From NCBI GenBank assembly GCA_030374765.1, contig JARGXX010000077.1, forward strand, positions 682,001 to 746,000: a stretch of DNA of 64,000 nt, read 5' to 3'. This document shows, in pieces, positions 19,698 to 61,943 of this stretch; within the stretch, counting starts at the first letter, position 1, and every line of letters begins with the position of its first letter. The notes beneath the pieces were generated by a model, which was not told where the DNA came from, did no database searches, and was given only the letters and a program-made list of their open reading frames with translations. Made by a program: the position numbers and the translations under genes. The DNA is from Agarophyton chilense (lineage: Eukaryota > Rhodophyta > Florideophyceae > Gracilariales > Gracilariaceae).

Positions 19698-21070
19698 CAG
19701 AATGGCGGTGGCCATAGTATTGTGTAGGGCGTGTTTATGAAGAGAAGCAAGCGTGTTTTTAAAGCACAAAACTGTTTTCAACGATACGGTGTATAGGTAC
19801 GACGGTAGAGCAGCTTGAATGTAATTTAATATATGCTATGCGTAGGATAAATAGTATGTTACTCCACAAGTGGCTTGTGTTTGAGGCACTTGAATGTTAC
19901 GCCCATTCCCGAGGTTTGAGCAGTAGGCACAAATACGGATGCACCCCGTTGATTAGCAGAGGGATCGAAATGACGTCGCTGGAAAGATCGGGAAATCACT
20001 AGAGTGAACTGGACGATTTGGTTGGCGATACAAGGCGCGCCGCCCCTTCTTGATCACAATGATGGGCTCAACAGTAGCCGCCGAAGGTACGTTGATGCAT
20101 ACCATTGGTTTGGCTGCCCCCCGGCCGCTTGTGTCATCCAACCAGCGCCGAGCAGCTGCCATAAATGCATGTTTCCGAAGCTTCCTCTCGCAGCGGGCGC
20201 GCAAAGCCGTGACGTCACGGAAGGACCGGACGAATGCGAAGTGCCGCGTCCTTCCGCCCCAGCAGCTGTGCGGCACGCGTCAATTTGCGCGTTGAGATCT
20301 GCGCAGATCGCAACAAGGACCGAGTGGAGTGCTGGCATTAGCTGAAATAATTCCACGCAAGCCGCAGCGATTGGTTCAAACACCTGCAACGTCGTACACG
20401 TGGACACATGCACAAATGATATCTTGTTTTGTAGGCCGCGGCTTAGGCACAGTGCTGACGCCAATTTCCAGCCACACATATCCGTTTGCGTGTTTTCCCA
20501 ATATAGACAGCCGTGCAGAATTCATTTCTCATGTAATAACACCCCCGTCCCATTGCGCCCTCCATTTGATATCCATTTGGAATTCATGTGTTTTGCTGAG
20601 AGTGCGTTGCTGTTGATGATGACGTCGATGCTCTTTTGAAAACAACTTCAGCACCCAAGTCTTGTGATTATACCTATATCCCCGACTCACAAATGGAGCC
20701 ATGTCACGATTCGTGTGAACCACCCCGCCATAACAACAGCGATAGAATCTCCCAGGATGCGAAGATCAACTTGGTTCATGAGCTCCAGCTGTTTCTGGTC
20801 TGCATTTGTTAAAGACGGGCGCCACCATTCGATTCTTCTGTGGCTCGCTTGCATCGCTGCGTCAAGTTAGCCGCTGAAACTATTTGTCAATAACACCGTT
20901 TCTTCCATCGTGTTTCACTGCGCATTCACCTGACTGCACGTCGACTTCCGTGCAACCCAGTTGTCACCCATCAGCTTTTCTATTTCATATCTTCAATTCC
21001 AAATATAAATTAGCTCTTGCTGAGCGTGGACTTTCGAACACAGACCGCCGCCGATTGTCTAGAGAGCAAT
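19698..21070. other. intergenic region between bZIP-like copies 1 and 2
   Basis: No gene supported. It contains a 14-base perfect palindrome with a CRE core at 20207-20220 and a CACGTG hexamer at 20397-20402, both known bZIP target types. Confidence 0.45.
20207..20220. promoter_or_regulatory. 14-base CRE palindrome upstream of bZIP-like copy 2
   Basis: CCGTGACGTCACGG is a perfect palindrome with core TGACGTCA. It lies about 510 bases after copy 1 and about 850 bases before the ATG of copy 2, in a position where a bZIP family could regulate itself. Function is inferred only. Confidence 0.35.
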
Positions 21071-22366: not shown

Positions 22367-22639
22367 GGCGTTTAACTTTATCTACCTTCGTAAGTTTCGT
22401 TTCATCGATTTGTTTTTTTTTGAGGGCGTCCATTGTGCCGATTTTCGTTCGGTACCGTCGTACCGTCATATTCTACAGTAGCTTCGTCCGCACTCATCCT
22501 GTTTACTCGGCTTTTTCGTAAAATCACAAATACTGTAGATACCTTTGCAACCGCCTCCCCTCTCTCTCCGCCGCTCGCATCCGCCTGTGTTGCTGGCTGC
22601 AACGCAACCCCCCTTCTTCCTCGCCCGCTCTCCCTTCCA

Positions 22640-30215: not shown

Positions 30216-31700
30216 GGCGAGGTGAAAAGTTTCGAAACGAAAGTGACAGAGCCGCGATGCCAAGCGCAATGCGTGATCGCTTTCAAGACCCTACAGGGAG
30301 CGTACGATACGGCGCGGCGGGGCAGAAACAATAATATCTCCGCTTGTTCACACTCCCTCAGATGCAGTCGGGTAAACAGTATCTCTAGCTCTAGAAAGTG
30401 TTTGCGTTGCCAACGTTACAACGTTATACCTGCAGGCCGTATCATTCGGCATGTCCGTCGGTAAAGCGACTCGCAACGGCGTGTAACACAGGTGGCGCAG
30501 CAGCCGCAGGTAGCCCGGCTACCAAGCTACCCGAAGCTACCTCCGCGCCTCGACCGCGTGCCTCTCTCTCTCTATCTCCATACCCATCTCCATATCACGC
30601 ACCCCTCGCGTGACCTTGCTCACACCTCGATAGATCACCCACACTCTGTCGCACGCGCTCGCCTTGGCAAGCAACCGTGTGCCATACAAGCGGCGACCCC
30701 CCGTCTCACACTGCCTTACAGTGATCTGGAGATTGTTTGTGATTTTTGGTTTCTATCAAAAAACGTTTCCTTCTGCTACAGTCCAACATGAGCTCCCGAC
30801 GAGAGGTTTTTTTGTATGGGAAAAGATCCAAGTGCATACTCTCAATGCATGCTACGCAGCAAGTGAGTGGGTGTAGCTCCATTAAGGAGCACAAAATTCA
30901 CAAGTATCAAAACCAACTGCACAGCTCTCAAGCGAGCCGTAATATTGTACATTTGTTTATAATCCACCCCCCATTACTTATCTCGAGCGCTCCTCTTCAT
31001 AACACTACGAAGAGCAACGTTTGCGCTACCTCGCCGCGTGCATTCTCGTGCACTTCAATATTTTGTGGCTGTGTATATCTTTCTTGTACGCACTCACTGC
31101 GCCATTCTTTGCGCGCCTTTTTTTTTATTTTTTGAAAAACTCACAACAGTTGCGTTTAACGCGCCTTTTGCGCCGCTCCTTGCGGCTGACATAGAGCGAA
31201 AACGTGAAATTCAGCTCGAAAACTTTTAGGATTTGTACCATAAAATGTGCACTTCGCACAAAACTCGAGCGCTTTGTGTTGTGCACTCCACGCCCGCGCA
31301 CGCGCAGGTGCTGGGGAACGTTGCCATGCGCCATCGCCTGTTTCGACGACAAACCTCTCAAAAAGTCAAACTCACTTCTCCCCCCCTCCCTTCCCCCCCA
31401 CCCTCCCCTGCTGTTCCCTCTTCGCCACAACCTTCACTTTCATCTACGCTGCCTGCCTCCCCGCCCCTCTACGTGTCTTCACTTCGCCTTTTCCTCCCTT
31501 GTTGCTCCACTTTCCTCTCCTCGTAAATCCCCCCGTCTGTCCCGTCCCAACTTTGTTACGTACAGCACTCGGACATTCGGAAGCCCTCCGCTTTCCGACT
31601 CTAAATTCCATTTTCCATCGCTTTCCACGCACTCTCGCCTTCCTCGTTCTGTTGCGGTCTCCGCAAGCTACGCAGGCGCCAGTCGCCCCGCACCAAAACG
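30216..31700. other. divergent region between bZIP-like copy 4 and PP2A B''
   Basis: No gene supported. A strong pyrimidine tract on the sense strand of the PP2A gene covers about 31370-31520, roughly 180-330 bases before its ATG. Confidence 0.45.
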
Positions 31701-45789: not shown

Positions 45790-47220
45790 TCATAAAGGTC
45801 CAAGTGGGTTATAAGCGTTTTGTACTACACCAAGAAGACTGTGCCCATGGTAATCTACGTGTGTACGGGTATAGTCACATGGCGGAATAAAGATAAACCT
45901 CCGTTGTTCCTCTAACGCAAGTCCAGCGCGTGTTCTCTTGTTAAGGTACTCGATGAATTCATTAAATCCGTGGCGGTCCTCTTCTGACTCGGGTTCATAA
46001 TAAAGAATAGATGCATCATTGAGAATAAATGTGCGTAAGTGCACTATATTAAACCTTCGTTCCACAACAAGAACGTTTGGAAGACCCGCGTCACCAATCG
46101 GAGTACCAGAGATCTGATGTGCAACCAAGTTACAAATAAAGCGGCCCGTCTTTTGCAGGCGACATGTCCACTTGGGGGTCTTTTCAACCTTTGGGTATAT
46201 GTTACGCCAACAATGAGGATCGTCCAGGCTAAGTTTGTTATCTAGGACGCGCCACAGAGCTAGGTCTGTCTCTAATGACTTCCAGTTCTGCAGGCAAAGT
46301 CTCTTCCAAAGACGCTCCTCATTGGCAAAGTCGTTCCACCTTTTGCACACCTCGCGGGCGCGAGCCAAGTCTCGGCCACTGAGGAAGCCAAACACATGCT
46401 TGGCAATCTCATCCGGAATCCTTTTGAACGGTTCCCTAGATTTCCGGCGTCCCGCAGTGACCTCAACACGGTGAGCTTTGTTGGCAGCCTGAATAGCCTC
46501 TGTAGCAGAGTGTGCATTCTGGAGGAGCATAGTGCGCAGATAATCACGTAAGAAGCTAGCGGAGCCAGCTTGCAGCGAGGGCTTGCTAGAAACGTACTCG
46601 AGCATGCGCTTAACATCGTTAACCAAAGCCGGGACAGAATCTGGTGCGACAACCTCCGGCTCATCACAGTCTCTGCAGCTGGAGCTGGCAGTGTCGGAGT
46701 CGGCACACGACCTCATACGTTTAGCGCGTGCGGCCGGGGTGGCGAGGAAAGGCTCATGCAATGAGAACAATTGAGAGGCGGCGTCATCATCGTCGCGCAA
46801 GTCGTGAGAGTGATGTACAACGTCAGTGCATTCGCGCATGTGCGGTGAGAGCTGTTGGGGTTGGGAACGAAGGTCGCGTGGACAAGGCATGCGAGAATGT
46901 CCTGGGCGGTCATGGTTCTCCAAATCGGTGAGCACCTGTATTTGCTGCTCGGAGGGTGGGCGCGGACGGTTAGCAGGCTTGGAGAAGTTGAACATGAGGG
47001 AAGCAGGTCGTTTGCGCGAGGTGGATGGACGGTGTTGGGTAGGGCGGTGCAGTGACGACTGCGGTGGGATGAGGTGCGAAGGGTGACGCGAAGGTGGTGA
47101 AGAAGGGCGAGGGTGAAGAGACGGAAGCGAGTGGTGAGCAAGGGGATGAATTTGTTGTGGGTGGTCAAGGTGGAGATGAGATGGGTAGTGGGCGTGATCA
47201 GGGGAATTGCCAAGCCTCAT
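45790..47220 (-). CDS. F-box protein with C-terminal SPOC-like domain, copy A
   Basis: It encodes 476 residues from the ATG at 47220. The frame stays open to 48381, but the upstream part is GC-rich low-complexity leader crossing a minisatellite, and this ATG places RKRPAS at a position comparable to copy C. Residues 1-190 are His/Pro/Ser-rich and disordered. Residues 190-258 are a helical segment shared with copy C (PDSVPALV...ASFLRD). The F-box is 266-310 (RIPDEIAKHVFGFLSGRDLA), which would bind Skp1 in an SCF ubiquitin ligase. Residues 351-469 read as a SPOC domain: KWTCRLQKTGRFICNLVAHQ, LPNVLVVERRF, EYLNKRTRAGLAL and FIFIPPCDY, in family order. SPOC domains bind phosphoserine peptides such as the RNA polymerase II C-terminal repeat. 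Substrates are unknown. Confidence 0.82.
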   Translation of the reverse strand: MRLGNSPDHAHYPSHLHLDHPQQIHPLAHHSLPSLHPRPSSPPSRHPSHLIPPQSSLHRPTQHRPSTSRKRPASLMFNFSKPANRPRPPSEQQIQVLTDLENHDRPGHSRMPCPRDLRSQPQQLSPHMRECTDVVHHSHDLRDDDDAASQLFSLHEPFLATPAARAKRMRSCADSDTASSSCRDCDEPEVVAPDSVPALVNDVKRMLEYVSSKPSLQAGSASFLRDYLRTMLLQNAHSATEAIQAANKAHRVEVTAGRRKSREPFKRIPDEIAKHVFGFLSGRDLARAREVCKRWNDFANEERLWKRLCLQNWKSLETDLALWRVLDNKLSLDDPHCWRNIYPKVEKTPKWTCRLQKTGRFICNLVAHQISGTPIGDAGLPNVLVVERRFNIVHLRTFILNDASILYYEPESEEDRHGFNEFIEYLNKRTRAGLALEEQRRFIFIPPCDYTRTHVDYHGHSLLGVVQNAYNPLGPL

Positions 47221-48008
47221 CAGTACATGACCGCCGGGAGCGGTGAGTGGGGAGTGTTTTTGGAAAAGGTCGCACACCAAGCGGGGCGTCGAGGGAGACA
47301 CAGGGGCGGGCGACGGGGGGTGCGGTGGGGTGTAGAGCGACGGCAGAAAGCGAGCGAGCTGGGAGCGAATAGAGTGCGCGCAAAGCGGGAAAGGCTTCGA
47401 ATGAGGCGACACGAAATGGAAGCTGCGGGCGCGTACGCGCCGGGAGCCTAAAAAGGAAATTGATTTGTTTGAGTTGCGCGCACGCACACGGCTACACGGT
47501 GCACAGACGGCGAGTGTGCCGCGAGTGACAATGACGGCGGGGGAGCGACGACCAAGGACCAGCACTGGAACTAGCAACGCTCGACGCTGGTAGCGAGACG
47601 AGCTGTGACTTGCAACTATGTAATGGCACACGCAGGCAGCGGCGCGCGTCGAGTCGGCGTGGGTTTGCGCGCGGTCGGTGCGCGCGGCGAAGGGTTTTGA
47701 TGGGGTTTGCACGGCGGAAATACGGGGTAGAACACACGCGCTCGCGGGGGCACGGGGGGGAAGGGAGGGGGGGAAGGAGAAGGTGGACGTCGATAGCGAC
47801 GGGGGGAAGGGAGACGCAAAGAATGAGCAGGGTTCTAAGGTTGCGTACGTCGGAGACGACTCGGTGAAACACCACGGCGAGGACGGCGTGGGGACGAACA
47901 TGAAACGAGCGCACGTGCGCGGAGGGGTGTGACGATACAAACGCGCGGCTTCTGAGTGGCGTGTGATTGCCATGGCCACGCGCGGCGCGACAGGCTGTCC
48001 TGCGTTTC

Positions 48009-48068
48009 GGCGTTTTCGTTTGGCGTTTTCGTTTGGCGTTTTCGTTTGGCGTTTTTGTTTGGCGTTTT
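48009..48068. repeat. 13-base minisatellite GGCGTTTTCGTTT
   Basis: Four full units start at 48009, 48022, 48035 and 48048 (the last with one substitution), followed by a partial unit. They lie about 790-850 bases upstream of the F-box A start. Confidence 0.9.
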
Positions 48069-48325
48069 GCGCGTGTGTAAGTTTGAGGAGGCGACGGGGC
48101 GCATGCGCTGCGTTTGGCGTTTGGTGGCGCGTGTGCGTTTGGCTGGTGTATATCACATACAATGGGGGGCACATACATGTACCCTTCGTACATGTCTGTG
48201 GCTGCGCGCGCGGACCGTTTCGTTTACTGGCGGCAGCGCCGCACGCGCTTGGCTTGGGCTTAGCAATCGTGTAGTGCCGCAAGTTGCTCGCCGCAAGTTG
48301 CTCGCCGCAGGTGCTCATTCCGTGC

Positions 48326-48328
<3 letters not shown>

Positions 48329-48363
<35 letters not shown>
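48329..48363. repeat. (AC)n microsatellite
   Basis: An uninterrupted AC run of 35 bases. Confidence 0.95.
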
Positions 48364-48364
<1 letters not shown>

Positions 48365-49178
48365 CCACACACGCCGCCCAACAGTTCCGTCTTCTTTCTG
48401 TCATGTTGCCCGTCACTTTTGCGCCGTGTCTGCTGCGCGTCGCAATGCGTGCTTACAAGGCCACAGACCTGCGCAATTCACATGCATGCCTCCTCGGAGC
48501 GTGCGCTACGTATTCGGCAGCAAGCTTCATCAATTACATTGCAAAACCAATCCCAATCGCGCGCGCACCTGTCCTCGTGCTCACTGCACCTGACGTGATT
48601 CCCGCCTTGTTCATTTCGCTCATCATCACCACTTGGTATTTTGCCGTTACAGCATCGCATGCTTTTTCGCCGATGAGAACGCGTGTGAAAAGCGCTCAAC
48701 AGCGATGTGTACAGTAAGAAAGCACTCCTGCTTGCAATCGTCTGATTTTGTGTCGGCACGTGTCGCATCGCACACTTTTGTGACGACTGTTGTGTGTGCT
48801 ACCAAACGTAGATACACGACGCGCCCCTGTAATAGATACGTTCGAATGTCCGTGAGAAGCTTGCCCGCTCTTGTACAAATTGCGTCGCAATCCATACAAT
48901 GCGACTCCAACAAATGCTGTACCAATCGCTGCGCGTCTGCATAACGTACAGTGTGCGAAGCTACTTGTCTCACCAAGTTGAGCGATCACTACCATCAGCT
49001 TTTCTGTTCTCATTTGCGGGGTGTGACAAGTTGTTTCAGCGCACGTTCGAGAGCGTCTTCTTTACCTGCGCCGCGGGTTCAAACCTCTCTCTTGCTTTGC
49101 AACTCTCGGTCTTCATGTACCAACATGTGTAGGAAAAAATACAAACGAGCCATCAGATTACTCACAGTAACACGTTTT

Positions 49179-49201
49179 CATCATCATCATCATCATCATC
49201 C
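49179..49201. repeat. (CAT)n microsatellite
   Basis: A short uninterrupted CAT/ATC run between F-box copies A and B. Confidence 0.9.
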
Positions 49202-49640
49202 TTTTGTGATGGCTTCCACTGTTAGGCGCCAAATAAATACACGCACACAATCGCAACGTTCGCTTCAGCTTTTATATCGAAATGCTGTTTCTTTTATGGG
49301 CAGCATCCGCCAAAGCCCAAAAATGACACCGAATTTCTGCAAACAAAAAACACATATCATACGTTCTGTATGGTATTAACATTGGCGCTTGTGTTGTTAA
49401 CCACGGTTTATGTGCGACTAGACTAATACAAACCGTTGAGCCACGTTCCATGAGTCCAAGTTAGATAGTAATCGTGCGTAGAACATAGCATAGAGCTTCA
49501 ACTTTTTTTTCCGATAAACTCAAACCATCAGTAGTGCCGATAGGTCCCTTGCTTGTTGTGTTTAACTTAACAAAAGTGCGTGGCTGTATTGAGCTCGTGA
49601 AACAAGGTTTGCCATCATGAGAAATGAAGCATAAAACGCA

Positions 49641-50291
49641 TCATGCACAAATGCCCTGAACGGCTCCAATCAACCGCTCTCCAGAATAGTTAATTCTTCG
49701 TCTCAGATCCGTGCAAGGTGGTATTAGCATTAGCCTCTTGTTGGGCAGCAACACCAGACCAGCCCTCTCCCTCTGCACGAGATAGCGTAAAAAATGCTCG
49801 TATGGTTCCTTGTCCAGCTCGCAGAGCGGCTCCAAGTAAAAATACGTGCAGTTGGCGCTGAGAAACATGTGAAGAAGAGTGACGTCGAATCTGCGTTTAA
49901 CAACCACAACTTCAGGCACTTCTGTATAAGGTCCTTTGATGAGATGCGCTATTACATTACAAACAAACCGACCGGACTTGTGTATCGTGACAATCCATCT
50001 CGGCCGATTCTGCAATGTTCGAAACACATACCGCCAGGGAATGGGGTTCACAGGCTCGCAACACGCCAACAAGGGCCATGCGTTGCGTTGTGTGCGCAAA
50101 CTAGGTGAATGAGTCAAGCAATGCTCACGCCACAGACTGTGATGAGTTGCGATTTCATTCCATCTACGACTGACCTGTCTGATCATCTCAAGCTCTTCCG
50201 GTGCATGATACGAAAAGATTTGGCGTATGACACAGTCTGGTAAGCTGTTGAAGGAGAACTGCCGCACAGTATCAATGTCCATCATGCTCAT
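49641..50291 (-). CDS. F-box protein with C-terminal SPOC-like domain, copy B (short)
   Basis: It encodes 216 residues from an ATG (MSMMDIDTVR). It lacks the disordered and helical N-terminal segments of copies A and C and begins almost at the F-box (14-58: SLPDCVIRQIFSYHAPEELE, then RQVSRRWNEIATHHSLW). Residues 98-212 match the SPOC-like domain: WIVTIHKSGRFVCNVIAHLI, VVVVKRRFDV, YLVQRERAGLVL and LMLIPPC, in the same order. It is the most diverged copy, with a shorter linker, and represents the minimal F-box/SPOC unit. It is tandem with copy A on the same strand and divergent from RFC5. Confidence 0.78.
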   Translation of the reverse strand: MSMMDIDTVRQFSFNSLPDCVIRQIFSYHAPEELEMIRQVSRRWNEIATHHSLWREHCLTHSPSLRTQRNAWPLLACCEPVNPIPWRYVFRTLQNRPRWIVTIHKSGRFVCNVIAHLIKGPYTEVPEVVVVKRRFDVTLLHMFLSANCTYFYLEPLCELDKEPYEHFLRYLVQRERAGLVLLPNKRLMLIPPCTDLRRRINYSGERLIGAVQGICA

Positions 50292-50868
50292 TGTTATAGC
50301 AAGTAAACGGAAACCGCACGCATGTAGGGGCGAAGTTTAAGCTGCTGCGAGGCGGGTGTCTGAAGCCCGAAGGAAAAGACACTATACGACAGTTTCGAAC
50401 ATGCATTGCACTTGTGCACAAATGCAGTTTTGAACGACGTGACACAACAGCAGCCAGTGGACTCCGGCGGGCCAAAAATTGGAGCAAACAGCCTGCGTAT
50501 GGTTCATCATCATTCGAAGAGTTGGTTTGGTTTCGTTCCTGCTGCGCTGTGAATGACTGCGAAAGCGGATGCGCCCTTCGCCTCCAGCCCCCATTAGTAT
50601 TCATCCCATCGAACACTTCATTGCTGGACAGGAATTGATGACCACCACCCCCAAATTCTGTCCCCAAAATTCCCAAACGAACGCGAAAGCTTCACGTGCA
50701 TTTTGGCGGGAGAGGTCGCACCGAAACTACCAATTTACCAAACTCGCTAGCTAGCTCTTGTGCGGAGAGCGCGCAGCTTTGGTACCACTTCACTAACCAC
50801 AATCCCCCTTCCCAACTTCGGCTCGCCATATCGACAAGCTTCCCTCTCAACCGGTCAACGTTTTCGCA
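50292..50868. other. divergent intergenic region
   Basis: It lies between F-box copy B and RFC5 and presumably holds both promoters. Nothing specific is seen. Confidence 0.45.
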
Positions 50869-51942
50869 ATGGAAGATCCTCAAGTTATGGAGATTGAGCC
50901 CGCCAAGCCACCAGCATCTGCTGCGCCAGAACAGCCCCCCAAGACCAAGTCTGCTCAATCGCTTATGTGGATAGAAAAGTATCGCCCGGAAAAACTGTCC
51001 GATTTGCTATCCCATCAGCAAATCATCACAACCTTGAGCACACTTATTTCTAACAACAGATTACCTCATCTACTATTTTGTGGTCCACCTGGAACCGGCA
51101 AAACATCCACGATACTCGCCTGCGCCAAAGAAATGTATGGACCTTCGTATAAGAGCATGATTCTTGAATTGAATGCCTCTGACGATCGCGGCATTCTAGT
51201 GGTTCGCGATCAAATAAAGAGTTTTGCTTCCACACGCCGCATGTTTTCCGCCGGAGTTAAACTCGTTGTCTTGGACGAGGCTGATGCTATGACGAGCGCA
51301 GCGCAGATGGCTCTTCGCAGGGTTGTTGAGAAGTTTGCTGCCAATACTCGCTTTTGCATCATTTGTAATTATGTCAACAAGATCATTCCCGCATTACAGA
51401 GTCGATGCACCAAGTTTCGCTTCGGCCCACTTCCACGTGGTGATGTACGAAATCGCGTCCGTGAAATTGCTCACAACGAAGGCGTTCCTCTGACAGAAGA
51501 TGGTTTAGAAGCTCTACTCGATCTCGGTAATGGAGATATGCGACGTATCCTCAATGTGCTGCAAAGCTCACATATGGCAGCTTCAGCTACTGGAGGCAAG
51601 GTCACTGCCGATGCAGTTTATGCGAATACAGGAGCTCCACATCCTGGGGACATTGCTGACATTTGGAAATTATTGATGGAACAAGACTTTGGCACTTGTT
51701 GTAAGGAATTGGACCAATTGACGAGGGCAAAGGGTTTGGCACTCCAAGATATTATTACAGAGATTCTTTCCCATGTTGTGAACAGCAGCATGAAAGGGGA
51801 AGGGAAACTGTATGTATACGAGCGACTCGCAGAGATTGAAGTGCGGCTTGCCGTTGGAGCTAATGACAAATTGAATCTGGCAGCTTTAGTTGGATGCTTC
51901 AAACTTGGTCAGGCAATCTCGATGGACAAAATGATTTGCTGA
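50869..51942 (+). CDS. RFC5: replication factor C small subunit RFC5 (yeast Rfc3)
   Basis: It encodes 357 residues from an ATG. It is a subunit of the RFC clamp loader, which opens PCNA and loads it on primer-template DNA in the nucleus. It is an AAA+ ATPase: Walker A GPPGTGKT (72-79), Walker B LDEADAMT (DEAD at 136-139) and the SRC motif (178-180) that reaches the neighbouring ATP site. The phrases LNASDDRGI, SFASTRRMF and ICNYVNKIIPALQSRCTKFR match the human RFC5/yeast Rfc3/plant RFC3 branch better than the RFC2 or RFC4 branches. The ~30-residue Pro/Ala-rich N terminus is an ordinary extension. It converges on SLX1 with 72 bases between the stops. Confidence 0.93.
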   Translation: MEDPQVMEIEPAKPPASAAPEQPPKTKSAQSLMWIEKYRPEKLSDLLSHQQIITTLSTLISNNRLPHLLFCGPPGTGKTSTILACAKEMYGPSYKSMILELNASDDRGILVVRDQIKSFASTRRMFSAGVKLVVLDEADAMTSAAQMALRRVVEKFAANTRFCIICNYVNKIIPALQSRCTKFRFGPLPRGDVRNRVREIAHNEGVPLTEDGLEALLDLGNGDMRRILNVLQSSHMAASATGGKVTADAVYANTGAPHPGDIADIWKLLMEQDFGTCCKELDQLTRAKGLALQDIITEILSHVVNSSMKGEGKLYVYERLAEIEVRLAVGANDKLNLAALVGCFKLGQAISMDKMIC

Positions 51943-52014
51943 CGAATGCCGAACACACAATGAAAACATGTACAGACTTCACTTTTAGTGATGAAAAAAT
52001 TAAGCTTAAGGAGT

Positions 52015-52854
52015 TCAGTCCCACTGTTCCAGAGCCTTGCACGCTCTGACCAAAACAGACCAGTGCATTTGACTACCACAGGATGAGCATGTCACAGAGT
52101 CAGGCAGCATTTTACAGTCTTTTGCGGGAGAGCATGTGGCTATGCAGGACAAATGACTCATCGTTCCGCATGCGGCGCAGAAAGTACGGGCTCTGTCCGA
52201 AGTTGGCTTAGAACATACCAGACATGGGCCATGGGTGGGGATTGTTTTCAGCTTCCGCCGGTAGTTATACGGCCCGCTTCGAAAATCTGCCACAGTCCCA
52301 AACTCAACCTCTTTATGTCCAGGGAACTTTATCTTATCGATCTTCCATTTGGGCCAATCTTCCCTCTTGGCTGTTACTGTAGGAGTGAGTGGGCAATGAG
52401 ACCACGGTGGAACGCTAAGTAGAGCCGCAAGGCTTTGCAAACACCCACTCGGTGTACTTCTGCCTGTCTTTGGTGCGGGTAACGCGTCTGGCCGACTCTG
52501 GTGCCATTTTAGAGGGATACACTTATCAGAATTCTGCCATGCCCATTCAAATTGCAATGCCTGCGTTTTTGACGAGAAACCATGAACAACAGCAACCATT
52601 TCCCATGGCCTATGCCGAGTTGTGCGACGTGCGCCAGCGATGACTTCTCCATTATGTTGGCGAATGCGACGAGCGGGGTCCACCGTAAATCCTATATATG
52701 TGCGATTCTTTGAGCCTCGTTTTTGTGAGAGAGATACGAGCAGATAACAGGCTAGGAGTCGAGGAGGTCCGTCTTGAGTGGGCAATTGATCCTGAGATGG
52801 CAACGATGATACTGATTCCTCGCTAGCATCGTTTCGTAGCTGGCTATCATTCAT
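52015..52854 (-). CDS. SLX1: SLX1-like structure-specific endonuclease subunit
   Basis: It encodes 279 residues from an ATG. SLX1 is the catalytic half of SLX1-SLX4, which cuts branched DNA such as Holliday junctions and 5' flaps. The GIY-YIG domain (about 33-115) contains ACYLLVSL, the YIG strand TYIGFT, the catalytic-type Arg in ARRIRQHNG and the metal-binding Glu in FEWAW. A C-terminal RING/PHD-like zinc module (about 210-265) has CLVCSKP, FCAACG, HLSCI and CSSCGS. The layout and order are the SLX1 signature. The first ~30 residues are acidic and Ser-rich. The linker between the domains is normal in length for the family. Its SLX4 partner is not in this window. Confidence 0.9.
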
Positions 52855-53400
52855 TTCGCATCTACGATAGAGACGATTATCGGCTGCTAATCAGATATTT
52901 TTGGACTCCCCGAGAGTGATGATAGCGGCTGGGTGGAACGTCTGCGATTGAAGTAGAAGGCCTCCTGTACCAGGATGATACCAGGAAGCCGACGAAAGCT
53001 TCAAAGTGTAAGGTAAGGTTAAGTCGAGCGTCGAACGGTCGGGCCTCGGACCTCCTGACTACTGGCGACGAACAGAGCAGGTTGCCAACCAAGTACTAAA
53101 CGTAAACGAAGGTGACGTCTTCAGTCCTGTATAAAAAAAGATTTCATTCCAAGCATCGATTGCTGCAACTGATGGCCAGTTGACTCTTGAATTTAAATTT
53201 TTGTTGTTTTCCATGTGAATCAGCTTCTGCAGGAACTTAACCTTAGTAACAGACAGCAGTCGCTCAAGCTAGTCTACAGAATGGAAAATCGGCTGTTACA
53301 GCGTCCATGTAGGCACATGTGTTAGCGGGCATATGGATGCATGTCTCTGGAACGCATTCTGCAAGGTCGAGTTCCCGTGGTGAACTACTATTAAAGCAAT
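52855..53400. other. divergent intergenic region
   Basis: It lies between SLX1 and a small plus-strand gene. No feature is seen. Confidence 0.45.
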
Positions 53401-53808
53401 ATGGCATACCTCTACGAAACTGCTGCTTGGCGGGCCATAGTTAGGGCAACCCGTGATCCAAAGTTACTACTCGCTTTCTCGGCGGCAACAGTCGCCGGTG
53501 GTTACTTCTTTGCTAAAGGATCTCGGATCGCCACTGATGTTGCCTCAGAGCAAACAAAAAAAGAAATTGAACGGCATCTTGAGAAGGACTGGGAAGCGGC
53601 GCGATATGCAAATCACAGCAAGAATGCTCTTGCTGTCATGTTTGACAACGTAAGGAAGGAAACAGATCCTGATGTCAATGAGAAACACAAGAAGTACCCT
53701 GTTAAACTACCGGGTGTTATGTGGCATCCTAAAGTTGCTGAACGGGAAAGGAAAAGGGCTGAATCACAAAAACGGGCAACAAACGCGAACACACATGAAG
53801 AAAACTAG
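53401..53808 (+). CDS. small hypothetical membrane-anchored protein
   Basis: It encodes 135 residues from an ATG. One hydrophobic helix (about 22-39, LLLAFSAATVAGGYFFAKG) follows a short basic N terminus; the rest is a charged helical domain with KEIERHLEKDWEAARYANHS and a conserved-looking KLPGVMWHP. The tail is Lys/Arg/Glu-rich. The topology fits a small organelle-membrane protein, and the proximal basic helix would suit mitochondrial targeting. I do not recognise a family. It converges on the next gene. Confidence 0.6.
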   Translation: MAYLYETAAWRAIVRATRDPKLLLAFSAATVAGGYFFAKGSRIATDVASEQTKKEIERHLEKDWEAARYANHSKNALAVMFDNVRKETDPDVNEKHKKYPVKLPGVMWHPKVAERERKRAESQKRATNANTHEEN

Positions 53809-54126
53809 ATACCTGTATGATTGCACCCTGATCTTGTAAACGATAAAGCGAGTTGTTTCTTGTAGATATTTGACAGATGTAAACTGTGCTCTCAAGAGGA
53901 CTGCACTGCAGAATTACCGAGCTGGTACCAAAGCGATACATGTAGTTGTGAAGACAGATGATTTCAATGTGCTTCCAACTACAGCCTGTTGTAGAGTTGG
54001 TCATCAATTCTGAATTCAATAAAAATAAGCTCACTGACGCCTGGAACCAATGAGGACTCACGTACTCTCAACAGAACGGCGATCCGAAGGTCGGCAAAGT
54101 TAGACAACTCTACAAACAAAATCCCA
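53809..54126. other. convergent 3' intergenic region
   Basis: An AATAAA hexamer lies at 54009-54014. Otherwise nothing is seen. Confidence 0.45.
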
Positions 54127-54558
54127 CTATACAACCCTTGGTTTGTCCAAATTCTCAGTATTTGGCTTCTGTGTATCCTTTAGAACGCTCCTTATCCAGA
54201 CCTGTAACCCCTGTTCTCCACCACTTCTTGCTGCTTGCACTCCTTCACGAACATTCTGCAAAAGCGTTTCTTGGGCTAGATCGTTTTCTCTCACCGCGAG
54301 ATCTCTTTCTTCTTCTAATTGCTCTATTTTTAGTTCCATCCTTTCGCGATTATCGGTATATGTACGTTTGTTCTTAACAGCTGTTGCAGCGACAGCAGTG
54401 GCGAGTCCGACAACGATGAGATCTGAATACTTGCGCAGGCCCCTCGATCTGGATCTCTGACGCTGGGAAACACGTTTGGCAGCTTCGGCTAGAATGCGTG
54501 ATGATTCAGGGGATGTCATTGTTTGTGTGGCTCGAAGTACTTGAGACGTGACTCGCAT
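54127..54558 (-). CDS. small hypothetical protein with one membrane helix and a coiled coil
   Basis: It encodes 143 residues from an ATG. The N-terminal ~45 residues are basic and rich in Ser/Arg with no acids in the first stretch, as in an organelle-targeting peptide. A weak membrane helix follows (about 47-61, LIVVGLATAVAATAV), then a coiled coil (about 70-105, MELKIEQLEEERDLAVREND). The C terminus is short and polar. I do not recognise a family. It diverges from RPB3 across about 650 bases. Confidence 0.55.
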   Translation of the reverse strand: MRVTSQVLRATQTMTSPESSRILAEAAKRVSQRQRSRSRGLRKYSDLIVVGLATAVAATAVKNKRTYTDNRERMELKIEQLEEERDLAVRENDLAQETLLQNVREGVQAARSGGEQGLQVWIRSVLKDTQKPNTENLDKPRVV

Positions 54559-55205
54559 ATTGAAATCCGCCCTTCTATTGATATCTGTGGATTTGCCGTG
54601 AGTTGGGACTGCCTTCTTTTATTCTTGGTAGTGTTGACTGATAGCTCGTTCGCGTCTCGATAGAACGAAGTCCGAGGCTCTCTTCCAAACGTAGAATGAT
54701 TGGGGTTGGATCAATAGGTTTCGCTAACACCTTAAGTTCGCCACAGTTCAATTGACATCGTTAATTCAACTCTTTTAGTCTATGTCCCCCCGCACTGGCG
54801 AAAATGTATTGGTTCTGAAGCAACTCAGGCAAAAACACCTCGGTCTCACATGGCGAGATAAGCACAAGCCCGCGAAAACTTCTTCATTTAAATATATTTT
54901 CAATTTGCATACCAACCTACCAAAACACAAGTATAGAAAATGATGGTTTGATCCTCCCCAATGGCTCATGTCCAGATTTGAATGTTCTCCCACGAAAAGG
55001 TACGAAGGCAGGTGGTATTACTGGTTCCGCTAACTAGTTGTATCCAGACTGAACCCCTTCCGCTCCATCCTCTTCGCTCTCGTTCTGTCTGTTCTCCTCG
55101 CGGACGAAACCAGCCACGCATCTCAGTGTTTTAGAGTCTTTCGAATGCTCGAGCCAGTGCGTATTGTATAACGGGTGTCCTATCGTCAACAAAAAGGCAC
55201 TCACC
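54559..55205. other. divergent intergenic region
   Basis: It lies between the small coiled-coil gene and RPB3. The RPB3 frame opens at a TTG (55164), but an ATG at 55206 is the natural start. Confidence 0.45.
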
Positions 55206-56129
55206 ATGCCGTTCGGAAGACAACCAAACCTCGAGATCAAGGATTCTAGTCGCTTCTACATGGGATTTTCTTTGACCGGAACAGATGTTTCCATGGCAAA
55301 TGCGATTCGGCGAACTATGATTTCTGAAGTGCCAACCATGGCGATCGATCTTGTAACGGTGAAGGAAAACACTTCCGCCTTGCATGACGAGTATATAGCT
55401 CATCGCCTTGGACTTATTCCATTATACTCCGAGAATGTGAATCGCTTTGACTATGGCTTTGACTGTGAAGAATGCGAGGACTACTGTGCGAACTGCTCCG
55501 TGTCTTTTGTTCTCCAAGTGCATGTTCCTGGAACAGACAGCGTTCGCAATGTCACCAGCAGGGACTTAACCTGTTCCAATAAAGAAACCGAAGATTGGTG
55601 CCATGAGGTGAAACCTATACACGACTCTGGAGACGAAGCGGACTCTGGAAATGGTATTTTAATCGCACGATTATCTAGTTCCCAACGCCTTGACATTCAT
55701 TGCATCGCAAGAAAGGGTATCGGAAAAGATCATGCGAAGTGGTCCCCGATGTGCACGGTATCTTACAGAATAGTGCCACCGGCCGTGGAACTGGTTCTGG
55801 ACAGACTGAACGCTTTACTTGAAGCTAAAGCAAAGGAAGACTTGGCGAAATACTCTCAGGGTTTGTTAAAACTTTCTAACAACATCCTGCATTACGAAGA
55901 ACCATTCTTAAAAGGGAGAATAGGAATAACACCAGACACAACAAGAAGAGTTGGAGAGTTGATAACAGCGGCAGGTGGAAAACCAAGTGAAGTCGTCAAA
56001 TTTAACTCAAATCCAGAGCGCTTCGATTTCACTGCGGAGACCACTGGTTCCATGACTCCTAGTTCCGCACTTCTCATGGCACTAGATCTGTTGAAAAAGC
56101 GCGTAGATAATGTTATGGCTCACATATAA
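55206..56129 (+). CDS. RPB3: RNA polymerase II subunit RPB3
   Basis: It encodes 307 residues from the ATG at 55206 (MPFGRQPNLEI). RPB3 pairs with RPB11 to nucleate polymerase II assembly, the role of the bacterial alpha dimer. The family core is complete: MANAIRRTMISEVPTMAID (the alpha-motif), HRLGLIPL, and the zinc loop CEECEDYCANC between about residues 81 and 92. The C-terminal dimerisation half has RFDFTAETTGSMTPSSALL, also typical. The zinc loop and the length favour RPB3 over the polymerase I/III paralogue AC40. A short extension in the insert domain is Asp/Glu/Ser-rich. No other polymerase gene is near. Confidence 0.92.
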   Translation: MPFGRQPNLEIKDSSRFYMGFSLTGTDVSMANAIRRTMISEVPTMAIDLVTVKENTSALHDEYIAHRLGLIPLYSENVNRFDYGFDCEECEDYCANCSVSFVLQVHVPGTDSVRNVTSRDLTCSNKETEDWCHEVKPIHDSGDEADSGNGILIARLSSSQRLDIHCIARKGIGKDHAKWSPMCTVSYRIVPPAVELVLDRLNALLEAKAKEDLAKYSQGLLKLSNNILHYEEPFLKGRIGITPDTTRRVGELITAAGGKPSEVVKFNSNPERFDFTAETTGSMTPSSALLMALDLLKKRVDNVMAHI

Positions 56130-57631
56130 CTGACATGAGCGCTCGTGTACTAACGTGTCGGATTTGTATAGCACTAGACGACCCCCTGCTCTCTTATGTT
56201 TTCGTCATTGTCACGTCTGGTCGAACCGCTATGTATCTATTGACTCACACTAAATTAAAAGAATGGGCAAGATTGTCAGGTCGTGAAGTCGAGTGTAAAA
56301 TATTAATGTTATTGTTTTACAAAGGGTTGAGGAACGGTGTACATGAGTATTCCCCCAATGACAGTGGTAAGGTTAGAGGCGAAACGAAAAAGATCGATCC
56401 TCCAGAATTGTCGTAGCATGGCTTAACATTCGTTGCTGAAACCATCGACGGATGGTGAGAACGCAAAAAGTAAGTATTATGAAGAGTCAGCCCCGTGCCA
56501 TCCAAGTTTCCGTGGTACGGTCGCACGTCAGCGTCGAGCATATGTAAAGAAGGGACCAACCGAATGGCCAAACTTCATAAGGTATGGCTTTCGGAGATCG
56601 ATCAATGCGTAGAGCATGGACACAAGCTCCATGTTTCGGCCATGTTTCCAAATTCTTATAAGATTCCATTGCGAGGGTGGAAGGCGGGTGAATGAAGAAA
56701 AGTCAGCATACGGATCAAAATTGAAAAACGGCTGAAGGGTTGTACACTAGGTATGGTTTCACCCGTGCCGGCATAGCGAAACTAAGCCGCTCCGACCAGA
56801 TCATAGAATATACCGTGTTGGAGGTTGATCTACAGTCTTCCGTTAGGGATTCTGGCGCCATTGGTGTGACGTTCCCAGACACGAGTAGGATAGCAGAACG
56901 GCACGGGAACAAACGCATCACGCACGAGGCGGAGCATTTGCTCACCGCGGCCGCTGTGACCCAGACTGAAGTAACTTTGAATGGAGGAGACAATGAGCGA
57001 CTTACATTCTCACATAGTGAATTCTGAAGGAGGCATGTTGACGGATTTCTCCTTGAAGCTTATGGCCAGTGTAGGATGACAGCTATGGAATTGTTTAAAT
57101 ACCACTCGGGGGTGGGGCTGATCCGCCGACGGAGGCTGCCACGGCGCTCGTAACGGCAGCGACGAGCGCAGAAAGGCGCAAGCGTGAACACATCAACAAA
57201 TTAGGATCAACTTTAAAAAGTGTGAAACTTTTTCAAATATAGCTATTTGTGGAGACGTCTTCTTCCTGAGTTCACCTGGGAGTTCGACAGCGTTTGATGT
57301 ATTATTGTGAACACGTACACAATATCTTGAAATGTGGACAGCTGTTGGGAAACGCATTCCACTGAAAGCACAACCGCTCAAACAAATATCAAAAAAAGTA
57401 ACATCGAAACGCAACTTACACAAGAGATACGCGTGCTCGACGGGCGCCTCCGCAAATGAGTGCACCCGATTGGCCGAAGCCAATGTGCGAGAAACTGCCG
57501 TTTTAGCGGTCAATCTTCGTAGGTTGTGTCCGTTCCGTGCCCGACGGGCGTCCCCGACGTGCCGTCGCAAGCTAAATAGCCAGGGAGGCACTCTTCCTCA
57601 ACTGGCTGCACTGCTCATACTTGCATTCACG
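56130..57631. other. 1.5-kb region without a supported gene
   Basis: A 95-codon plus-strand frame at 56740-57027 is somewhat protein-like but opens at a TTG and has no domain. The GNL1 frame extends 100 codons upstream of its ATG (to 57332) without coding features, and is treated as leader. Confidence 0.45.
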
Positions 57632-59443
57632 ATGGGCAAGAAACCTTTTTCCGCCAAACAAAAGCGCGAGCAACTCAAGCAGAAGCGCTTAGCTGCTACT
57701 TCTAAACATATTTCTGCTCTTCCCCATTCTTCAAAGCCCTCCCTCTCCGCCAACACAGCCAATTTACCAGCCCTTCACGCTCCGTCCACCAATGCAAACG
57801 CCACCCCACGCCGTGCTCGTGGTCGAGCTCCCCGCCAGAACCCCCAGCGGTATCGTCTCCAACTCACCGACAATCCCTCACAGAACCGCGTTCATGACCG
57901 TCACCTAGCCTTCGTTCCACTGGAGCCGCACAAGCTACCAGAAACCTCTGTGCACGACGTGAGACCAAGCGGCTTTCGAATGCCGAGAAGACCAACCTGG
58001 AGATACGAAGATAGCGTAGAGCAGCTCGATATTCGCGAAAGAAAAGCATTGCAGGCGTGGATTCACACCGTAGAAACAGACTCTTACTTTGAGCGAAATT
58101 TGGAGACTTGGCGACAGCTCTGGCGCGTTATTGAACGGTCAGACGTGCTGGTTCTTGTGGCTGATGTTCGTTTCCCAGCACTGCATTTCGTTCCAGACCT
58201 GTATGAATACTGTCAGGAACTGGGCAAAGGCATGGTGCTTGCGCTGAACAAGTGCGACCTGGTATCGAACAACCTTTTGCATGCGTGGCGGTCGTACTTT
58301 GAACGTTTGTATCCCGAGCTGGCCATAGCACTGTTCAGCTCGTTTCCAGATGCAAAACTGCGTGCAGAGGATGCCAACTCAGAATTGCTCAGCAAGCGCG
58401 AGAGAAGGATGGCTCGATCAAAACTGTCTGCTTGGGGCGCTGACCAACTGCTTGCAGCAATCAAGTCACTGCCACTGGATGCGCAGAGAAGGGCGTATTT
58501 GGATGAGTGGCGCTCTCAGTTGGATGATTCGGATGATGAAGGTGTCGTCACAGTATTGAACCGACGCAGACAAAGGGCTACTTGGAGACATATGAATCAT
58601 GACAGTGACAGTTCAGATGATGAGGGCTACAACAGACTAGAAGAGGCTGGAACAGATGGTACGCGCGCGGACATGATCACTATTGGATTTGTCGGGCATC
58701 CGAATGCGGGCAAATCTAGTCTAATCAATGGCATCTTTCAGAAGAAGGTAGTAAGCACGAGTCGTACTCCTGGACACACGAAACATCTTCAAACTATTTT
58801 TCTGTCCGAGCGTGTGCGGCTGTGCGACTGCCCAGGATTGGTATTCCCTGGAAACGCTCCGCGCGAACTACAGATTCTTTCAGGAATGTTCCCTATCAGC
58901 CAAGTACGAGAACCGTATGCGGCTGTTAGATATCTAGCCGAACGGGTTCCGCTGGTGGATATTCTTGGTCTGAACGTTGTGGTGGATCGACTGGAAAAGT
59001 TTGTGCAGGAGGAAGGGTACATAAGTGACGACGGATGGACGGCGTGGAAGATTTGCGAGGCGTGGGCAATGAAAAGGGGATTCCGAACTGCAAAGGCAGC
59101 GCGACTGGATGTGTTCAGAGCGGCGAACAGCATATTGCGGTTGGCGCTGGACGGACGGATTGTTCTGGCTACTGTTCCAGTGGGGTTTGTGGAAGATGTC
59201 GGGGTCGAGGAGGAGGAAGAAGTTGAAGTGCTCACAAACAAGGGAGACGGTGCAATTATTGGCGGGGCCATGAGACAGGAAAGAGAGAAGGTGATTGATG
59301 GCGAAAGTGTGAACGACACTGAGAGCGTGAACGATAGCTTTAGCGATAGTGATACCAGTAGTGATAGCGGCGAGGTGTTTGGCGACGAAGGTCGTTCGTC
59401 GCGAAAGGTTGGCAACGTTTTTTTGTTGCTCGAAAATGAGTAG
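57632..59443 (+). CDS. GNL1: GNL1-like circularly permuted GTPase
   Basis: It encodes 603 residues from the ATG at 57632; human GNL1 is about the same length. The start MGKKPFSAKQKREQLKQKR is the family's own N terminus, which decides the start against the longer frame. GTPase motifs appear in permuted order: G4 NKCD (206-209), G1 GHPNAGKSS (355-363), G3 DCPG (399-402). RNLETWRQLWRVIERSD and ICEAWAMKRGFRTAKAARLD are strongly GNL1-like. The related LSG1 and NOG2 factors release or remodel the 60S subunit, and GNL1 is thought to act in ribosome biogenesis or nucleolar traffic. The tail is acidic with Ser/Asp runs (DTESVNDSFSDSDTSSDSGE). LSG1 is the alternative, but the N terminus favours GNL1. 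Confidence 0.9.
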   Translation: MGKKPFSAKQKREQLKQKRLAATSKHISALPHSSKPSLSANTANLPALHAPSTNANATPRRARGRAPRQNPQRYRLQLTDNPSQNRVHDRHLAFVPLEPHKLPETSVHDVRPSGFRMPRRPTWRYEDSVEQLDIRERKALQAWIHTVETDSYFERNLETWRQLWRVIERSDVLVLVADVRFPALHFVPDLYEYCQELGKGMVLALNKCDLVSNNLLHAWRSYFERLYPELAIALFSSFPDAKLRAEDANSELLSKRERRMARSKLSAWGADQLLAAIKSLPLDAQRRAYLDEWRSQLDDSDDEGVVTVLNRRRQRATWRHMNHDSDSSDDEGYNRLEEAGTDGTRADMITIGFVGHPNAGKSSLINGIFQKKVVSTSRTPGHTKHLQTIFLSERVRLCDCPGLVFPGNAPRELQILSGMFPISQVREPYAAVRYLAERVPLVDILGLNVVVDRLEKFVQEEGYISDDGWTAWKICEAWAMKRGFRTAKAARLDVFRAANSILRLALDGRIVLATVPVGFVEDVGVEEEEEVEVLTNKGDGAIIGGAMRQEREKVIDGESVNDTESVNDSFSDSDTSSDSGEVFGDEGRSSRKVGNVFLLLENE

Positions 59444-60070
59444 GAGTTGTGTGTATAAATGGTAGATAAAGCTGGGGAGTGCAATAACAGCTGGTGATTT
59501 CATGTTGTGAGTAGTACGCGGTGAAGCGGTGAAGAGTGACGCTTGTAGGTTAAGGCTCGAGGCATAAGTAATGGGCTCGGGAAAAGGAAGGGTGAGGCCG
59601 ATTGCAGATGCGTGTAATGAAGACGGTAAGGTCAAAAAGACTAAGGTTTGCCATCGCAGAAACCGCGAGTGATCCTCACCGCCACTCAAACTCGTGTTCC
59701 TACAGCCAATTACTGCGCGAAATCAAGGTGCTCCAGTCATGGCCTCCCCCGATACTTTCAACTTTGCACGAGCGTCAAACTCCGCTTCCGCAGGGCATGT
59801 CGCCAGTACAGAAATTTCCGTAGGGCAAGTCTTCTACGTGCGCAAGTAAGGGCCCACGATTCAGCTATGGCATCCACACAGCCACACCTCCGCTTGGATG
59901 ACAGCAGGACGCGACGCCCGCCGGTGGCGATGGGTCGGGGTGGGGCGGTTTATATTGCTGACGAGTGAAGTGTGTGGTGGGGGGGGTCGTGGGTTCGAGA
60001 CTGTGCGGTGCGGTGTAAGAGCGGGCTGTTTTTTTGGATTGCTCTTGCGAGCGCTTACGTGGGGTTGGAC

Positions 60071-60071
60071 A

Positions 60072-60113
<42 letters not shown>

Positions 60114-60124
60114 GCACAGCAGCG

Positions 60125-60157
<33 letters not shown>

Positions 60158-60160
60158 GCT
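60071..60160. repeat. compound (GGC)n-(AGC)n trinucleotide array
   Basis: About 38 bases of GGC repeats followed by interrupted AGC repeats; no coding role is supported. Confidence 0.95.
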
Positions 60161-60244
60161 GCGCTGTGCTGGCAAGAAAAGAGTGGCACCCAAATATCTG
60201 TGCCATCGACATCCCGTTCCACTCAGCACGGCGATTAACGGTCG

Positions 60245-60262
60245 CACACACACACACACACA
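60245..60262. repeat. (CA)n microsatellite
   Basis: An uninterrupted run of nine CA units. Confidence 0.9.
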
Positions 60263-60854
60263 ACTCAAAACTCCACGTGTCCACCATCTCTTGGCAACAT
60301 TGCGTGCGTGCGTGCGTGCATACAAAAGCATCACCAACGCGACCATTTTGCGCGTATAGCGCGCATTCGCGTGTGTGTGAGAGTTGGTGCTTGTAACTTT
60401 TTCAAAATAACGCTGCTGCCGTGCGACTGCTTTGGTTTTCATTCGACCCCCCTTTCCCCTTCCCCACCCCCTCCCCCCCTCGACTGTGTTCACTTGTTGT
60501 GCGCTTGAGAAAAGTTGCGCTGCCTTTTGCGCTTGACTTGGTGTGTGTTTCTTATTCACGTCCGCTACGTTTCGTCAACGCTCCCGTTCGAGCTTGCTTC
60601 GCTCGTGCATAACTTCCGTTCCTTCCGTCGTGTCGCTTCTCACGTCCGTCGCCTTCGACCGCATATTTGTCCTCATAACCTTCACGCCACAACCCTCCTC
60701 CCCCTCTATCCTCCCCCTCTATCCTCCTCCTCTCCCCCCCACCCTCGCCTCGTCCCGTCTCTCGTGCCCCTCCCCTCTTGTCTCCGTCTCACTTCTCTTT
60801 TTTTTTTTTGGCTCCCCGCAACGCCCAGTTTCCCTTCGCTCCGGCGATGTTCTC

Positions 60855-61943
60855 ATGACGCTTCGTCGCAAACTACCGACAGAGCACAAACAAAAAACTT
60901 CCAACCCAAGAAAGAGACCAGCCTCCATGTTGTCCCCCAAACCCCAACCGGAAGAGCTTGAAATGCTTATTCTTCCCGAACCGGCCGTGTACGGCGTGCA
61001 ACTGTCCGCGCCGCCCTCGCCGAACTGCAAGCGGCTGCGCGCCGCTGAAAGTGATGCTAGCTCGTCGGTCAAGGATATAGACGAGCCGGACGATTTTCCG
61101 CCCGACTCGGTGCCTGCGCTCGTGCAGCAGTTACACAATCTAATCAATTACATTGCGCTTAGACCCGCGCTTCATCACGCCTCTGCCAGTTTCTTGCGCG
61201 ACTCGCTTCGCACGCTGTTGCTACAGAATGAGAAGGCCGCGGTGGACTCTCTCAACGCTGCGGCAAAGTTGCATCGCAACGCAGTAGCGGCCGGCAGCGC
61301 ATCGCCTCAACACTTTTTTACAACGTTGCCAGATGAAATCACCAAGCACATATTCACATTTCTTGACGGCAAGAATCTTGCGAGATGTCGAGAGGTTTGT
61401 TCCAAGTGGAATTCGTTTGCGAGCTGTGAGAAACAGTGGAAGAATCTGGTCACCCGACAATGGCGCTCATTACAATCGGACGTTCACGCGTGGAAGCTGA
61501 TAGACAGCAGCGTGGACCCGAACGGCGCCAACCGATGGAGAATGATTTATCCGAAAGCGTCGCGCATTCCCAAGTGGCGGTGCCGACTGCAGAAGACAGG
61601 GCGCTTTATGTGCAATCTAGTAGCGCACCAAATCGGGGGCGCAACGATTGCAGATTGTGGACTGCCTGAAGTGCTCGTTGTGGAGCGACGGTTCAACCTA
61701 CAGCACCTGCAGGCGTTTGTGATGGCGGATGCCACGGTGCTTTACTTTGAGCCGGAATCCGAGGAGGATCGGTGCGGGTACGAAGACTTTATCGAATATT
61801 TGATCAAACGTACGCGAGCTGGACTGGCTCTTGATGAACAACAGCGCTTTATTTTCATCCCGCCGTGTGAATACACTCGTAACCAGGTCAAGTACGAGGG
61901 TCGGAGTCTGTTGGGCGTAGTGCAGAACGCTTATCCGCCATAA
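60855..61943 (+). CDS. F-box protein with C-terminal SPOC-like domain, copy C
   Basis: It encodes 362 residues from the ATG at 60855 (MTLRRKLPTEHKQ); the frame opens at 60543 but that part is a pyrimidine-rich leader. A RKRPASM motif (19-25) mirrors copy A. Residues 81-150 form the helical segment shared with copy A (PDSVPALVQQ, ASFLRDSLRT). The F-box is 156-200 (TTLPDEITKHIFTFLDGKNL, then REVCSKWNSFASCEKQW). The SPOC-like domain is 241-359: KWRCRLQKTGRFMCNLVAHQ, LPEVLVVERRF, EYLIKRTRAGLALD and FIFIPPCEY. Copies A and C share long identical runs in this domain, so they are recent or strongly constrained. Copy C lies about 13 kb away on the opposite strand, with RFC5, SLX1, RPB3 and GNL1 between, so duplication was followed by transposition or inversion. 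Confidence 0.83.
   Translation: MTLRRKLPTEHKQKTSNPRKRPASMLSPKPQPEELEMLILPEPAVYGVQLSAPPSPNCKRLRAAESDASSSVKDIDEPDDFPPDSVPALVQQLHNLINYIALRPALHHASASFLRDSLRTLLLQNEKAAVDSLNAAAKLHRNAVAAGSASPQHFFTTLPDEITKHIFTFLDGKNLARCREVCSKWNSFASCEKQWKNLVTRQWRSLQSDVHAWKLIDSSVDPNGANRWRMIYPKASRIPKWRCRLQKTGRFMCNLVAHQIGGATIADCGLPEVLVVERRFNLQHLQAFVMADATVLYFEPESEEDRCGYEDFIEYLIKRTRAGLALDEQQRFIFIPPCEYTRNQVKYEGRSLLGVVQNAYPP

Follow-up and report, generated by a model that had tools for sequence, protein, structure and literature searches.

Three genes in a stretch of 64,000 nucleotides from the red alga Agarophyton chilense (assembly GCA_030374765.1, contig JARGXX010000077.1, positions 682,001 to 746,000 of the forward strand; hereafter the window) encode proteins in which an F-box is followed by a SPOC domain. 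Judged from profile matches, this architecture is almost certainly real. The proteins, called here copies A, B and C, may be adaptors of SCF-type (Skp1-Cul1-F-box) ubiquitin ligases, able to choose their targets by reading phosphoserine. The three genes, with Pfam scores for the whole proteins, are the following.

45790-47220, minus strand: copy A (P0001, 476 amino acids), open reading frame, F-box-like 57.0 bits, SPOC 37.7 bits
49641-50291, minus strand: copy B (P0002, 216 amino acids), open reading frame, F-box-like 48.2 bits, SPOC 27.5 bits
60855-61943, plus strand: copy C (P0003, 362 amino acids), open reading frame, F-box-like 47.6 bits, SPOC 41.8 bits

Each open reading frame is uninterrupted and ends with a stop codon at the coordinates listed. 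Copy B is a minimal protein made of F-box and SPOC; copies A and C carry N-terminal extensions, long in copy A, where the start codon of the 476-residue frame is putative. In all three copies the SPOC domain starts about 40 residues after the F-box. A tblastn search of the 64-kilobase window with all three proteins did not find a fourth copy, and returned one extra weak stretch (E 0.41).

F-box and SPOC domains

The limits of the domains and the Pfam families supporting them are given below.

46288-46425, minus strand: F-box of copy A, residues 266-311 (PF12937, E 1.6e-15)
50115-50252, minus strand: F-box of copy B, residues 14-59 (PF12937, E 9.3e-13)
61320-61454, plus strand: F-box of copy C, residues 156-200 (PF12937, E 1.4e-12)
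45859-46176, minus strand: SPOC of copy A, residues 349-454 (PF07744, E 2.5e-9); patch K357, R389, Y425, R429, R431
49713-49988, minus strand: SPOC of copy B, residues 102-193 (PF07744, E 3.4e-6); patch K105, R134, Y170, R174, R176
61575-61931, plus strand: SPOC of copy C, residues 241-359 (PF07744, E 1.4e-10 over residues 241-341); patch K247, R279, Y315, R319, R321

Pfam curated cut-offs are 24.3 bits for the F-box-like family PF12937, 20.5 bits for the F-box family PF00646 and 25 bits for the SPOC family PF07744. All whole proteins exceed the first (see the gene list) as well as the second (35.6, 29.0 and 36.2 bits for copies A, B and C), and all exceed the third, copy B narrowly. The first-pass annotation, made from the letters of the DNA, had proposed three genes encoding an F-box followed by a SPOC-like domain, and this holds for each of them. 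When the SPOC parts are scanned alone the scores are 40.7, 29.5 and 44.1 bits for copies A, B and C, and SPOC is the sole Pfam family matched at E up to 1; the profile comparison suggested by the annotation for residues 241-359 of copy C thus yields a significant match. The motifs by which the SPOC domain had been recognized are less uniform than proposed. K-T/S-G-R-F and (E/R)YL-x4-RAGL occur in all three copies, but LP-x-VLVV-x-RRF and F-x-F-x-PPC are found only in copies A and C, the counterparts in copy B being VPEVVVVKRRF and LMLIPPC.

Comparisons with solved structures in the PDB point to the same two domains. Copy C alone matches the SPOC domain of FPA (5kxf) over residues 240-362 (E 9.4e-9). 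A profile built from the F-box and SPOC parts of the three copies retrieves the same domain (9.7e-13) along with the F-box proteins FBXW8 (4.4e-8), FBXL5 (1.5e-6) and Skp2 (1fqv, 8.5e-5), and a SPOC-only profile retrieves the Arabidopsis FPA SPOC at E 5.5e-13. The SPOC-only profile also matches PHF3 SPOC in the same register as FPA, at an E value (0.088) not significant alone. FPA and PHF3 are its sole matches, and the SPOC domains of SHARP and RBM15 go unmatched at E up to 10. An Elongin A identity for copy B was rejected: PF06881 reaches only 18.8 bits versus a cut-off of 29.8, and the match is taken as general F-box likeness.

The basic patch of the SPOC domain

The SPOC domain of FPA is reported to carry an electropositive sub-patch formed by K447, R477, Y515 and R521, and a more hydrophobic one formed by T478, H486, V524 and F534 (PMC4981400). 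These positions were carried over to each copy through the FPA-profile alignment, the 5kxf chain being numbered by an inferred offset under which eight of eight patch letters match those of the paper. The electropositive sub-patch is identical at four of four positions in all three copies (K247, R279, Y315 and R321 of copy C). In contrast, none of the four hydrophobic positions is kept in all copies: T478 is replaced by Phe and V524 by Leu throughout, H486 corresponds to Gln, Arg and His in copies C, A and B, copy B alone having the His, and F534 to Ile, Ile and Met in the same order. Moreover, K519 of FPA is Arg in every copy (R319 of copy C). The first-pass annotation held that the Lys, one Arg and the Tyr of the phosphoserine pocket seem kept; conservation is better than claimed, since two further Arg residues join them in a set of five (K247, R279, Y315, R319 and R321 of copy C, and counterparts) invariant in the three proteins.

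R477 and Y515 of FPA correspond to R1248 and Y1291 of PHF3 (PMC8526623), and to R3552 and Y3602 of SHARP (PMC9834408). In PHF3, R1248 and R1297 are reported to form hydrogen bonds with the second phosphoserine, the R1248A change to make binding more than 10-fold weaker, and K1267 and K1309 to form a second basic patch (PMC8526623). The spacing Y-x3-R-x-R-x2-V fits Y1291, R1295, R1297 and V1300 of PHF3, a numbering inferred from the spacing itself, and these residues align with Y315, R319, R321 and L324 of copy C. The copies thus resemble the SPOC of PHF3 (and DIDO) in having equivalents of R1248 and Y1291 and, by spacing, of R1295 and R1297. The SHARP pocket is made of K3516, R3552 and K3606, with Y3602 (PMC9834408); K247 is equated with K3516, and R319 with K3606, by position and offset only. 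Going by sequence, it is fairly probable that the SPOC domain of the copies binds a phosphorylated ligand.

Age of the copies and selection

No DNA similarity was found between any pair of copies (blastn, E 1e-3). In the 352 codons compared between copies A and C, 71 percent of third positions and 22 percent of second positions differ; synonymous sites are saturated (ps 0.85), nonsynonymous sites are not (pn 0.30). Lack of DNA similarity and synonymous saturation, combined with a constrained protein, indicate that the duplications are old, and that the proteins have been maintained. Constraint is unevenly distributed. Between copies A and C the SPOC domain has the lowest nonsynonymous divergence (pn 0.18), followed by the F-box (0.34), the N-terminal region (0.35) and the linker (0.41), synonymous sites being saturated in each part (ps 0.81-0.93). 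The corresponding values between copies B and C are 0.40 for SPOC, 0.47 for the F-box and 0.56 for the linker. Invariant positions in the three copies number 46 of 119 in SPOC, 11 of 46 in the F-box and 6 of 40 in the linker. An artefact or a chimeric gene was rejected on the basis of the same domain order in three separate genes, which have no mutual blastn similarity, are saturated at synonymous sites and are constrained in their amino acids.

N-terminal extensions

About 100 residues upstream of the F-box are common to copies A and C.

46456-46743, minus strand: N-terminal region of copy A common with copy C (tblastn alignment from residue 160 of copy A; A-C alignment)
61008-61298, plus strand: N-terminal region of copy C common with copy A (tblastn; A-C alignment)

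The N-termini of both proteins feature the sequences PDSVPALV ... SASFLRD-x-LRT-x-LLQN, and an acidic stretch rich in serine, SD-ASSS-x2-D-x-DEP, which has one residue more in copy A and is located at 61050-61088 (plus strand) in copy C and from residue 175 in copy A. A basic RKRPAS stretch lies further upstream, and KR-x-R is also basic. The serine-rich motif is possibly a kinase site or an internal phospho-ligand. Pfam scans at E up to 1 gave no match for residues 1-152 of copy C, and for the piece of copy A that was scanned a single one, below cut-off. A PDB search with 90 N-terminal residues of copy C found nothing. Since copy B is devoid of the N-terminal region, F-box plus SPOC represents the core unit of the family.

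Relationship to known proteins

FPA, a member of the plant Spen family, provides the closest solved relative, its SPOC domain being identical to copies C, A and B at 36, 32 and 40 of 116 aligned positions, respectively. RNA recognition motifs are part of the described make-up of FPA and an F-box is not (PMC4981400), whereas the copies have an F-box and no RNA recognition motif. In the Spen family (SPEN, RBM15, FPA) RNA recognition motifs are N-terminal to SPOC, and members of the PHF3/DIDO/SPOCD1 family carry a TFIIS-like domain and, except SPOCD1, a PHD. Pfam scans at E up to 1 revealed no RNA recognition motif, PHD or TFIIS-like domain in copies A, B and C, and genes of the Spen or PHF3 type were rejected for this reason.

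In well-studied SCF adaptors phosphorylation is read mainly by WD40 domains or via Cks1, and Skp2, FBXW7 and beta-TrCP are adaptors reading phosphorylated targets in these ways. The copies are similar to them in the order of an F-box and a C-terminal protein-binding domain, and in the presumed phosphorylation-dependent choice of target, but host SPOC where leucine-rich repeats or WD40 domains follow the F-box. Asr1 of yeast is a RING ligase, with no known F-box or SPOC. It resembles the copies in coupling ubiquitin ligase (E3) function to phosphoserine reading, which is presumed for the copies.

The fusion of an F-box to SPOC was unknown to the author of the first-pass annotation, and none is described in the titles or abstract openings from a literature search, though eukaryotic sequence and domain-architecture databases may record it. 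In the texts consulted, the term F-box is absent from PMC4981400 and PMC5596367, and the term SPOC from PMC7829749, which deals with F-box genes of 111 genomes. Relatives were sought in viral, prokaryotic and phage sequence, a search which says nothing on other eukaryotes. Viral contigs yielded 7 pattern-matching stretches with copy C and 21 with the F-box and SPOC alignment, prokaryote genomes 71 with the alignment; none of these was confirmed. Phage records gave no match to copy C.

Genes surrounding the family

The window is eukaryotic, and contains long unbroken open reading frames. Eighteen open reading frames other than the three copies were scanned with Pfam (E 0.001); 10 have a match over the curated cut-off, 8 do not. 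The families found are Sel1 repeats, GIY-YIG/SLX1-like, Efg1, a GTPase of the 50S-ribosome-binding type, protein kinase, NOP9, EF-hand protein, HAD hydrolase, RPB3 and replication factor C. The gene for RPB3, a subunit of RNA polymerase II, lies at 55164-56129 (plus strand) between copies B and C, a location which is probably a coincidence. Among solved chains, its nearest matches bear the name subunit 3 of polymerases II, IV and V (E 7.4e-52), and the next named RPB3 group follows at 2.8e-45; polymerases IV and V are plant enzymes, a weak pointer to a host from the plant or algal side. A signal recognition particle RNA maps at 59678-59908 (minus strand), the best family being Protozoa_SRP (79.5 bits versus a gathering score of 65).

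Four diverged paralogues reside at 17523-19697, 21014-22366 and 22424-24418 (plus strand) and at 28617-30290 (minus strand). The N-terminal domain common to them has no Pfam match over cut-off. The C-terminal region resembles a basic leucine zipper (bZIP), with bZIP matches below cut-off in all four, and a C-x2-C ... C-x-C-like motif is visible by eye. They probably constitute a family of transcription factors. The open reading frame at 62943-64001 looks similar to them by eye; BLAST gives no link.

Possible mode of action

A protein in which an F-box precedes a protein-binding domain is typically the substrate receptor of an SCF ligase. As this arrangement marks a receptor, and SPOC domains of other proteins can read phosphoserine, the simplest reading is that the copies are SCF adaptors for phosphoserine-marked targets. 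According to this view, the small gene family would encode substrate-receptor subunits of SCF-type ligases. A kinase would mark the target first, the F-box would dock onto Skp1, the basic patch of SPOC (K247, R279, Y315, R319 and R321 of copy C) would grip the phosphoserine of the target, and ubiquitination would follow. The two domains, the patch and the constraint are present in the three proteins; assembly with Skp1 and Cul1, dependence on phosphoserine, ubiquitination and the targets are what they would imply, and for the mechanism as a whole we see an even chance.

The profile matches to both domains, the low nonsynonymous divergence of SPOC between copies A and C, and the patch speak for it: identity between FPA and all three copies extends to 24 of 116 aligned positions, and the probability of finding the four patch residues among them by chance is ~0.0015. 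Several points weigh against it. The chance estimate is flattered, because those residues had been picked by the authors for their conservation among plant FPA homologues. R3548 of SHARP, which strengthens the binding of SMRT (PMC9834408), corresponds by offset to V275 of copy C, and is Val in all copies. Not all SPOC domains are phosphoserine readers: SPOCD1, which lacks two of the four basic residues, is thought to have lost this ability (PMC9834408). The predicted structures are too poor for a test of the distorted beta-barrel typical of SPOC. Two AlphaFold2 models, fed with three-sequence alignments, have mean pLDDT (predicted local distance difference test) values of 36.2 and 35.8, and neither has a significant Foldseek match. 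With the low-confidence F-box plus SPOC model the SPOC domains of FPA (E 0.24) and PHF3 (E 0.47) rank first and second among the best 50 of 169 matches, with TM-scores of 0.25 or less; with the SPOC-only model, also of low confidence, no SPOC domain is found among the best 50 of 266 matches (best E 0.40). Finally, FPA proteins mutated at R477 (R477A), at Y515 (Y515A) or at both still perform both of the RNA-level functions that were examined in planta (PMC4981400), so that conservation does not in itself make the patch an essential phosphoserine site.

The FPA mutants also favor the notion that SPOC binds its partner through a surface insensitive to phosphorylation, the proteins being SCF adaptors all the same. 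Tas3 and Med25, whose folds are related, offer a parallel: the Tas3 SPOC and the Med25 ACID domain contact their partners through a surface in roughly the same place (PMC4981400), and the SPOC domain of SHARP binds SMRT strongly even in the absence of phosphorylation (PMC9834408). Yet, it is the electropositive sub-patch, and not the hydrophobic one, that is identical in the three copies, and we deem this explanation rather unlikely. Alternatively, the F-box may bind Skp1, or some other partner, without any ubiquitination, and the proteins may be transcription or RNA-processing factors of the kind in which SPOC is found. F-box proteins without SCF activity exist, and the RKRPAS and KR-x-R sequences of copies A and C could be nuclear localization signals. 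Against this stand F-boxes far over the Pfam cut-off (47.6-57.0 bits), and a SPOC domain unaccompanied by any RNA recognition motif, PHD or TFIIS-like domain; we hold it to be unlikely.

A special case of the SCF adaptor reading, raised by the first-pass annotation, is that the copies recognize the phosphorylated carboxy-terminal domain (CTD) of RNA polymerase II, and that the polymerase or factors bound to it are ubiquitinated. Yeast Asr1 is an example of an E3 that binds the phosphorylated CTD, using other residues for it, Lys43, Arg48, Arg168 and Arg252 (PMC12270679). However, SPOC domains also recognize other phosphorylated partners (PMC9834408), and among fungi and red algae the degeneracy of the CTD tends to rise with the complexity of the body (PMC4215175). 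The CTD is a possible target but not the favored one, and the special case appears improbable. A broader scenario, doubtful as a whole, is that a eukaryotic lineage made phosphodegron readers of its own when it joined an F-box to SPOC and multiplied the fusion, so that an SCF ligase would directly ubiquitinate phosphorylated transcription machinery, possibly the CTD or its partners. The serine-rich acidic motif that copies A and C have in common could then act as an internal phospho-ligand that switches the adaptor.

Should the copies be SCF adaptors with a phosphoserine-reading SPOC, a phosphoserine reader otherwise known in transcription regulators would have been wired into protein destruction. 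Copy B, with its 216 residues, would then represent a compact natural adaptor for phosphorylation-dependent degradation, both halves of which are well understood.

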